Shown here piece after piece: positions 34,273-36,887 of a stretch of 64,000 nucleotides of DNA. Source of the stretch: Clostridia bacterium (GTDB taxonomy: Bacteria; Bacillota; Clostridia; Christensenellales; UBA1242); the NCBI GenBank assembly GCA_017478185.1, contig JAFVEA010000003.1, forward strand, positions 62,001 to 126,000, given 5' to 3'. The notes under the pieces were generated by a model that saw only the letters and a list, made by a program, of their open reading frames with translations, was not told the origin of the DNA and ran no database searches. A program made the position numbers and the translations under genes. How positions within the stretch are numbered: the stretch's first letter is position 1; every line of letters starts with the position of its first letter.

Positions 34273-35877
34273 TTAATGTTCATTTAAAAGGCTATCTAAA
34301 AGTGTTTTTCTGTTTGTTAGCCAATTATTTAAAAAATCTAAATTTTTTGTTGTTAAATCTTCATCAATTTCATTATACCATTTATCTTGATTTAACTCTA
34401 ATGAAGTAATAATTTCATTTTGTATTTCATTTATTTTTGTAATAACTGTTGATATTGCATCACTTCCAACATTTTGATATCTTTGTTTATATAGTGTGAA
34501 TAATTCCTCACAATTTTGAATGGCTTGAAAAAATATGTTTGAATATGAAATTTCATTAGACACAACATAACTTTCATTTGGGCATCCTGTCCAAGGAGTG
34601 TATAAACACCAATCATAATCCCAAATTGGACCAAAATTTAATTTATAGTTTTCTGAAATATTTTTTGAAGTTGTTGTGTAAAACATATTAAAAGATTTGT
34701 AAACATGGTCAGATTCACCCATAATTTGGTCAACTATTAAAAAATCTATAAGTGAATTTATATTTGTTTTGCTTTTTATGCTCTCAACATTTTTATCATA
34801 AAATGTATCAAAAATATCTTTAACATAAATTTTCAGCTGGCCAAAAAAGCTTTGAAATTGTTCTTCTGAACAAAAATCTTCTTTTTCAGGGTACTTTAAT
34901 TCAATATATTTATCATATTCTTCTAAATAAAAATATGTTTTATCTAAAATACTAGTTGGGTCACCGGTAACACTAGCATCCATAGAAATAAAAAAGTTAA
35001 AATCTTTTAAATCTGCCATATCTTCGGTTATTTCATTCATTTCAATATTCATTCGACCGCTATTTTCTTGAACTTGTTCACATAATGTGTAAAGCCCAAC
35101 ATATTCATCATTTAAATATAAATTAACTTTTTGTGGGTGAGGTGTAAATGATAAATTGTCAAGCTCGTTTCCCAAATTTAAAGCGGCGTAGTTATGTAAA
35201 TTTGAAGGGTCAAGATATTCAGCCAAAAGAACCCAACTTTTAGCTTTTGGCAAGCCAAACAAACTTTGTTTTTTATCAAATTTAATGCGGTATGGTTTTT
35301 TGTCATATCCACTTGTTGAATTTCCTCTAAGCCTTATGCCTCCACTTATATTGCTTAATTCATCTGTGCTATTTAATAGATTAAATGTCATTTGTGTGTA
35401 ATCTTCTTTATCTTTAGAGTTTATTTCTCCATCTACATTAATGTTTATTATTGGCAATTCATCTGTTGCGTAATCAGCATAACAAATTATTGACGAGCTT
35501 TCTTTTATGTCTTTTAAATTTATAATATTATTAGTTATTTGGTTTCCATCAATTTCATAATATAAAAATTTGTAGCCTAATTTTGGAATAATGTTAACAG
35601 TTTCTAAATTTTTTATATTCTGATTTTCTAATGTATCATAAAGCTCCCCATCAACTTCAAAATTTAAGCCTTTACTTATATTTGAGTTTAATGTTAATGT
35701 TATATCTTTTTCAACTTCCAAATTTTCAATTATATCAGAGCTTATCGCATCTTCTTGCTTGTTTGAAGCATTTGAAGAATTTTTAAAATGAATCACAAAA
35801 AACAGTGTTAATCCAACCGCAATAACCAAAAAAGCGGTTAAAATTAAAGATATTTTTAATAAATTTTCTTTGTTCAT
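34273..35877 (-). CDS. CotH-family protein, membrane anchored
   Basis: 534 residues. One N-terminal helix (about 8-30) anchors it. A small beta domain (about 50-130) is followed by the CotH kinase-like domain (about 145-520). The motifs are GGIRLRGNSTSGYDKKPYR, SLFGLPKAKSWVLLAEYLDP, LHNYAALNLG, and the metal-binding WDYDWCLY. CotH of Bacillus phosphorylates spore coat proteins; related membrane or secreted proteins occur on bacterial surfaces. GGGGAG lies about 11 bases before the ATG. The promoter spacer is a run of eleven C, suggesting on/off switching. It is followed by a terminator shared with the Sir2-like gene. Confidence 0.85.
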   Translation of the reverse strand: MNKENLLKISLILTAFLVIAVGLTLFFVIHFKNSSNASNKQEDAISSDIIENLEVEKDITLTLNSNISKGLNFEVDGELYDTLENQNIKNLETVNIIPKLGYKFLYYEIDGNQITNNIINLKDIKESSSIICYADYATDELPIININVDGEINSKDKEDYTQMTFNLLNSTDELSNISGGIRLRGNSTSGYDKKPYRIKFDKKQSLFGLPKAKSWVLLAEYLDPSNLHNYAALNLGNELDNLSFTPHPQKVNLYLNDEYVGLYTLCEQVQENSGRMNIEMNEITEDMADLKDFNFFISMDASVTGDPTSILDKTYFYLEEYDKYIELKYPEKEDFCSEEQFQSFFGQLKIYVKDIFDTFYDKNVESIKSKTNINSLIDFLIVDQIMGESDHVYKSFNMFYTTTSKNISENYKLNFGPIWDYDWCLYTPWTGCPNESYVVSNEISYSNIFFQAIQNCEELFTLYKQRYQNVGSDAISTVITKINEIQNEIITSLELNQDKWYNEIDEDLTTKNLDFLNNWLTNRKTLLDSLLNEH

Positions 35878-35903
35878 AAAATTTTTAACTCCCCTTATTT
35901 GAT

Positions 35904-35938
35904 ATTATGATATCAAAGCTAGGGGGGGGGGGTGTCAA
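35904..35938 (-). promoter_or_regulatory. Poly-C spacer promoter of the CotH gene
   Basis: On the minus strand a perfect -35 TTGACA (35938-35933) is followed directly by eleven C (35932-35922) and then TAGCTTTGATATCATAAT. With a 17-base spacer the -10 is TGATAT (35915-35910). A better -10, CATAAT (35909-35904), is at 23 bases and would need a shorter C run to be used. Slippage in the run would change promoter spacing. Confidence 0.6.
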
Positions 35939-35997: not shown

Positions 35998-36119
35998 GGG
36001 TTATAAATTGTATGAAAATAATAAAATAGTGTTTGCCACAGTTTCAAGGCATTCTCACACAAAACTTGTTTTATGTTAAAATCTCAAAAAAGCTTTCACT
36101 TAAAAATTATAACATCACC
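35998..36119. repeat. Interspersed repeat copy B (MITE-like)
   Basis: About 122 bases sharing with copy A the left end GGTTATAAATTGTATGAAAA, the TTTGCCACAG block, the GCATTCTCACACAAAACTTG block, ATCTCAAAAAAGCTTTCACTT and the right end ATCACC. It is shortened in the middle. The 404-base gap upstream of the XRE gene holds this copy, the cotH promoter and otherwise AT-rich sequence. Confidence 0.7.
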
Positions 36120-36281: not shown

Positions 36282-36887
36282 ATGGATATAATAAGTATTG
36301 GAAAATTCATAAAAGAACAAAGAAAGGCAAAAGGGTTAACCCAAAATGAGCTTGCATCAAAGCTTATGATAAGCGAAAAAACCGTTTCAAAATGGGAATG
36401 TGGCAATGGTTTGCCAGATGCAACACTTATGATTCCGTTGTGCACAGAACTCAATATCTCTGCCAATGAACTGCTATCTGGCAGAAAACTTTCAAGCGAA
36501 GAATATAAACAGCAAGCAGAGCATAATTTGTTTGATTTAAAACAAAAACAAGAACAAACCGCCAAATTTTTGCTAGCAATTGAGTGCGTTTTGGGCTATA
36601 TAACATCAATTTCTTTTTTTATTTTTATTTTTATTGCTTCATATTTTAACATTCCATTAGGGTGGAGAATTGCGCTTATTGTGATTGGAATTTTAAATTT
36701 TTTTGTTGGAATTCACTTTTGCCTAAAAATTGAAAAAGATGCCGGATTTTATGAATGTAATTGTTGCCACAACAAATATATTCCAACTTATAATCAAGTT
36801 TTGTGGTCTATGCATTTTGGGCGAACAAGATATATGAAATGTTCAAAATGCAATAAGACAAGTTGGAATAAAAAAGTGATAAAATAA
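36282..36887 (+). CDS. XRE-family regulator with membrane helices and zinc ribbon
   Basis: 201 residues. A Cro/CI helix-turn-helix (about 6-62; FIKEQRKAKGLTQNELASKL then ISEKTVSKWECG) is followed by a polar linker and two membrane helices (about 95-115 and 124-145). A C-terminal zinc-ribbon-like segment (ECNCCHNK ... MKCSKCNK) closes the protein. The layout is that of membrane-tethered XRE regulators seen in Firmicutes that respond to envelope signals. GGAGGGG precedes the ATG. Targets are unknown; it may control itself or the genes just downstream. Confidence 0.8.
   Translation: MDIISIGKFIKEQRKAKGLTQNELASKLMISEKTVSKWECGNGLPDATLMIPLCTELNISANELLSGRKLSSEEYKQQAEHNLFDLKQKQEQTAKFLLAIECVLGYITSISFFIFIFIASYFNIPLGWRIALIVIGILNFFVGIHFCLKIEKDAGFYECNCCHNKYIPTYNQVLWSMHFGRTRYMKCSKCNKTSWNKKVIK

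Follow-up and report, generated by a model that had tools for sequence, protein, structure and literature searches.

A cytosine tract in the promoter spacer of a CotH-family gene and related G/C-tract promoters in a Clostridia bacterium suggest phase variation of surface proteins

Introduction

Does the run of eleven cytosines between the promoter elements of a gene encoding a CotH-family protein act as a length-dependent expression switch? The original prediction had described an 11-base G/C homopolymer directly after a perfect TTGACA, upstream of a membrane-anchored CotH protein, and had inferred phase variation by promoter spacing with the architecture of the Neisseria porA and opc promoters. 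Two related mechanisms form the background. The phase variation known in gut bacteria consists mostly of DNA inversions (Bacteroidales and C. difficile being notable cases), and homopolymer phase variation is known mostly in pathogens.

Results

Organization of the cotH promoter region

The homopolymer was confirmed by sequence readout as a C11 run at positions 35922–35932 of the window, which is the whole analyzed stretch of DNA (64 kb). The run consists of C on the minus strand and G on the plus strand and lies directly 3' of TTGACA. The minus-strand layout is CTTGACA-C11-TAGCTTTGATATCATAATATCAAATAAGGGGAGTTAAAAATTTT-ATG, and this ATG opens the 534-amino-acid CotH-domain protein. The following features were assigned:

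34273..35877, minus strand: gene encoding the CotH-domain protein, 534 amino acids (ORF call, Pfam PF08757)
35889..35896, minus strand: Shine-Dalgarno-like AAGGGGAG (sequence)
35898..35917, no strand: 8-4-8 inverted repeat TTTGATAT-TATG-ATATCAAA across the −10 region
35904..35909, minus strand: CATAAT, −10 candidate of the original prediction, spacer 23, less likely
35907..35915, minus strand: proposed extended −10, TG-A-TATCAT (hexamer 35912–35907, spacer 20, non-repeat part 9)
35910..35915, minus strand: TGATAT, −10 candidate of the original prediction, spacer 17, lacking A2, less likely
35922..35932, minus strand: C11 homopolymer, first part of the promoter spacer (sequence, run counts)
35933..35938, minus strand: −35 element, perfect TTGACA (sequence)
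36282..36887, plus strand: HTH_3 regulator gene, divergent neighbor (ORF call, Pfam)

Such a run is exceptional in its surroundings. C/G runs in the window have lengths of 1 to 5 bases plus the lone run of 11, with none of 6–10; the second-longest length, 5 bases, occurs eight times. At the window composition, a 64-kb stretch should contain about 0.0002 runs of at least 11 bases, and the observed number of C8 matches was never attained in 100 dinucleotide shuffles.

The assignment of the gene to the CotH family held (profile PF08757, E = 1.6e-33, 117.1 bits against a curated cut-off of 23.8). The claimed membrane anchoring is consistent with the single N-terminal hydrophobic segment that was found; the protein scored as exported-like and is predicted to be N-terminally anchored and surface-exposed. 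A comparison with PDB sequences yielded no match to the CotH protein at E ≤ 0.01, and the catalytic residues therefore remain unmapped. The gene forms a single-gene unit, the next gene downstream being convergent. No evidence was obtained that ties the divergent HTH_3 regulator gene to a switch. A rightward promoter directed toward this gene was rejected, because the plus strand carries no −35 element upstream of the G run.

The transcription start of cotH is predicted at about position 35900, an inference from sequence alone. A consensus promoter scan of the region returned 17 promoter-like sites compared to 16.8 in shuffled sequences, that is, chance level, so that other cotH promoters cannot be excluded; the scan also reported a weak −35/−10 match at 36047–36018. 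The inverted repeat at 35898–35917, about 340 bp from the divergent regulator gene, might serve as an operator of the cotH promoter. Palindromes of the 8-4-8 type occur about 0.10 times per 60 nucleotides in the window, and a chance origin of this one is not excluded.

Ten tracts in the genome, all located in promoter spacers

The genome (G000; 1.10 Mb, nine contigs) was examined by pattern searches, from which all genome-wide counts are derived, with C8 searched on either strand. Exactly ten distinct C/G runs of at least 8 bases are present, with lengths of 9 to 14, and every one of them lies between a −35-like and a −10-like hexamer. Random sites of the window met both hexamer conditions at a frequency of 0.0007. 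The −35 element reads TTGAC at nine tract promoters and TTGAGA at the remaining one; the −10-like hexamers are TATAAT, TAAAAT, TATACT, TACAAT, and TATCAT, most of them TGn-extended. The coding strand carries G at nine tracts and C only at the cotH promoter.

The shortest tract of the genome (L033:4743–4751; C3:336242) is a G9 run with a spacer of 18. It is flanked by a yqfC-like sporulation gene and by a divergent gene for a 191-amino-acid protein lacking a signal peptide and any Pfam match. The yqfC/yqfD-like sporulation genes of L033 provide the gene-content evidence, the only kind used here, for a Clostridia-like affiliation. This promoter is likely to be active, although this is inferred from the sequence alone.

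Three contig ends (C1:57520–57543, C6:21–34, and C3:540149–540658; L031, L036, and L034, respectively) are located about 12–500 bp from tracts, and contig ends near tracts were also observed in many relatives of G000. Assemblies probably break at the repeated tract promoters.

The spacers share a fixed part

The spacing of the tract promoters was compared with that of ordinary promoters. Pairs of TTGACA and TATAAT elsewhere in the genome have a spacer of exactly 17 in 33 of 60 cases, and TGn-extended promoters at spacer 17 gave 39 matches in the genome compared to none for a reversed-pattern control. The ten tract promoters have spacers of 18–23. When the run is subtracted from the spacer, 9 bases are left at seven of the ten loci and 7–8 at the other three. 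The tract starts 0–6 bases past the −35 element; the sum of the non-repeat parts is thus regular, and its portions are variable. With such a fixed part, about eight repeats give a spacer of 17, the length preferred in this genome. Trimming the tracts to approximately eight bases is accordingly predicted from the sequence to restore this spacer at most loci.

This regularity bears on the choice of the cotH −10 element, for which TGATAT at 17 bases and CATAAT at 23 bases had been proposed. Both distances are arithmetically correct; the boxes themselves are probably wrong, and the intermediate TG-a-TATCAT at spacer 20 had been missed. TGATAT is doubtful, as it lacks the consensus A2 and was not reported by the consensus scan at spacers of 16–18. 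The two hexamers imply fixed parts of 6 and 12, respectively, outside the ten-locus pattern; only TGaTATCAT gives the fixed part of 9 common with other loci and is therefore preferred. Two sites in the TGn-extended spacer-17 set carry a TATCAT hexamer, which makes TGa-TATCAT a believable −10 element. In the absence of a mapped start, TGaTATCAT at spacer 20 remains a prediction, but a likely one. The assembled 11 C set the cotH spacer to 20. One-base changes of the tracts are predicted to move the spacers across the optimum of 17, and the assembled cotH length is probably one at which the promoter is weak or OFF; the effect on expression is inferred.

Genes downstream of the tracts

Besides cotH, the tract promoters precede two genes for BspA-type LRR lipoproteins (PF13306, E down to 1.6e-136), four for other lipoproteins, and two for proteins without signal peptide or Pfam match; at the C1 tract, the contig ends before any gene. 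Among the nine readable tract genes (cotH included), seven were exported-like, compared to 11 of the 54 genes of the window (p = 0.0014). The term exported-like refers to a simple hydrophobicity rule devised for this analysis and not to a trained predictor. By the same rule, 87 of 123 downstream reading frames (≥100 amino acids) in other genomes were exported-like. In G227, G157, and G225, paralogous families of large surface proteins were found, every member of which is located behind a tract promoter. By this rule, tract promoters mostly drive genes of exported proteins.

Distribution of tract promoters among relatives

The pattern TTGAC, followed by up to eight bases and a run of at least nine G, was detected in 115 of the 309 family genomes, representing 27 of 42 genera, and the reversed-pattern control was nearly silent (a handful of matches). 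The highest counts were 40 matches in G071 and 18 in G091. Across 391 genomes sampled from the whole class, the pattern was nearly confined to G000 and a sister family belonging to the same order, in which one genus was positive in three of four sampled genomes and another genus once; the remainder of the sample contributed single matches in five other genomes. The C-strand form is rarer than the G form (13 compared to 29 of 147 genomes, with the matching pattern).

This distribution argues against the explanation that the runs are neutral expansions or assembly or sequencing artefacts with an incidental upstream placement. In favor of an artefact, homopolymers are error-prone and contigs C1, C3, and C6 end at or near tracts. 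However, artefacts would not account for the location of all ten runs in promoter spacers, the link to one gene class (p = 0.0014), the recurrence across 27 of 42 genera against a nearly silent control, or the absence of C/G runs of 6–10 bases from the window. We consider this explanation very unlikely.

No close ortholog of the CotH protein was found in the genus, and the cotH tract is therefore not comparable between species. Among 80 CotH relatives in other genomes, a tract in the promoter just upstream was present only in a Bacilli MAG from rabbit gut (L069). There, TTGACA-N9-G10-TATATT (tract at L069:327–336) precedes a gene (L069:405–2486) for a 693-amino-acid CotH-domain lipoprotein (35% identity over the CotH part); it might be an independent instance of the same promoter arrangement. 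A search of viral contigs for copies of the cotH locus that would reveal length variation returned none.

Some relatives display additional inverted repeats. In G012 and G111 (L197–L200, L202, L209, L213, and L215), promoters of the type TTGACAAAAATGC-G9-TAAAAT or TAGAAT are directly followed by an inverted repeat, which takes in the −10 box, ends with ACCC, and has a stem differing from locus to locus; some of these promoters are located a few hundred bp before genes of exported proteins. Hairpin leaders, attenuators, or small RNAs are conceivable functions. G10–G12 tract promoters of G120 (L272–L275) carry a palindromic sequence (atatgatagtacta...) at and past the −10 box.

Length differences between tracts

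The promoters of two LRR lipoprotein genes (C3:295832 and C7:112886) are near-identical over about 390 bp and differ in the run, G11 compared to G12. This paralogous pair is the sole direct length difference seen in the genome, and an assembly or sequencing error might underlie it. As the lengths represent the assembly consensus, a one-base error cannot be excluded in any single case. The related lipoprotein promoters of contigs C1 and C6 were rejected as proof of slippage: their run lengths differ because a T is replaced by G at the edge of the tract, with a spacer of 21 in both.

Across genomes, run lengths range from 9 to 14 in G000, 10 to 13 in G023, 12 to 14 in G025, 11 to 23 in G058, 10 to 14 in G076, and 10 to 16 in G138. 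In G076, four promoters that resemble one another in their flanks carry runs of 10, 11, 12, and 14. In G058, promoter-like spacers contain runs of G20–G23, which often lie at contig ends (L277, L278, L279, and L284). The runs in G012, G111, G157, G196, and G640 are nearly all of length 9, with spacers of 15–16; the family search required at least nine bases, which truncates the length distribution. Orthologous lipoprotein promoters of G131 and G142 (L139 and L140) both have a spacer of 16 with C9 and C8, respectively, a substitution replacing one C.

These data bear on a second explanation, which sees in the run a stable promoter element of constant length that shapes the spacer or binds a regulator. 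It is supported by the five genomes with runs of nearly always exactly 9 and constant spacers, and by the G131 and G142 orthologs, which hold a spacer of 16 despite C9 versus C8. Against it, lengths vary in the six genomes listed above, and the occurrence on G and C strands at varied spacer positions is ill-suited to a protein-binding motif. A stable element appears unlikely. Some G-tract promoters, however, do not look variable. The evidence for variability is strongest in the genomes with longer runs, including G000, and short runs may represent promoters that are stably ON or nearly so.

MutS is encoded by an uninterrupted, full-length reading frame. A general mismatch-repair defect is therefore not implied, and loss of mismatch repair was rejected as a cause.

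Discussion

Slipped-strand phase variation via promoter spacing, acting on a genome-wide set of surface protein genes, is the likely and best explanation, and evidence beyond that of the original prediction supports it. The tract, its position, its recurrence in the genome, the regular spacing, the gene class, and the occurrence throughout the family are shown; slippage and its rate, population heterogeneity, and the effect on expression are inferred. In the proposed mechanism, slipped-strand mispairing during replication would add or remove C between the −35 and −10 elements of the cotH promoter, the spacer would pass through 17 bp (about 8 C) and off it (20 bp at 11 C), and cotH transcription would rise and fall in one-base steps. 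The cotH promoter would be one among ten switching promoters in the genome. Since tract promoters are mostly located before exported proteins, cells would differ in their combinations of surface proteins.

A third explanation accepts a varying tract that only tunes the basal level, with main control exerted by the extended −10, another upstream promoter, or a repressor at the palindrome. A TGn-extended −10 can work without a well-placed −35, most tract promoters of the genome have such an element, and the palindrome covers the cotH −10. However, the palindrome does not stand out clearly from chance, and nine of the ten promoters retain a TTGAC −35 despite off-length spacing, which suggests that this element is in use at some lengths. 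We regard basal tuning as unlikely and retain phase variation by promoter spacing as the preferred reading.

The claimed likeness to porA and opc holds by anatomy; population variation and the effect on expression remain inferred. In the Neisseria meningitidis porA promoter, a G tract is likewise located in the spacer before a surface protein gene, and expression changes stepwise with one-base changes: surface expression is highest with 11G, followed by 10G and 9G, with 2.2- and 13-fold differences (PMC3639595). However, porA is a single Gram-negative gene, whereas approximately ten promoters, mostly with TGn-extended −10 elements and mostly before lipoprotein genes, are concerned here in an uncultured low-GC lineage in which switching is inferred from sequence. 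The opc promoter of the same species resembles that of cotH in its coding-strand C tract and its one-base effect on an adhesin, a change from 11C to 12C raising Opc (PMC3447861). Gene and lineage are unrelated, though, and the cotH optimum is predicted at about 8 C, in contrast to high opc expression at 12 C.

The phasomes of Campylobacter, Helicobacter, and Neisseria also comprise numerous homopolymer loci that are independent of one another and associated with surface-related genes, but many of those tracts are located in reading frames, unlike the ten described here. Bordetella fim and Mycoplasma vlp promoters are known for homopolymer length in promoters of surface structures, with several independently switching loci; they belong to different lineages, the vlp tract is poly-A, and no sequence comparison stands behind this likeness.

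The mechanism is thus already known. The present case departs from the known ones in its lineage, in the placement of all long C/G runs within promoter spacers, in a common TGn-extended −10 and fixed spacer part, and in its extent across the family. No description of phase variation in this lineage or of such a promoter set was found in the literature searched, which left out most subscription papers; lineage, scale, and regularity therefore only provisionally seem undescribed.

A bolder reading can be drawn, which we find as hard to accept as to dismiss. Here, a family of small-genome uncultured Clostridia-like bacteria would possess a dedicated phasome consisting almost only of promoter-spacer tracts, with as many as about 40 tract promoters in a genome, most of them preceding surface protein genes. 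The fixed part of the spacer would be tuned to a common optimal repeat number, genomes with long runs would mostly be parked at OFF lengths, and the loci would switch independently and in combination.

If phase variation by promoter spacing is true, uncultured Clostridia-like bacteria would diversify their surface, including lipoproteins, BspA-type LRR proteins, and CotH, by simple slippage. As the tract length records the switch state, switching would be readable from existing metagenome reads without culture.
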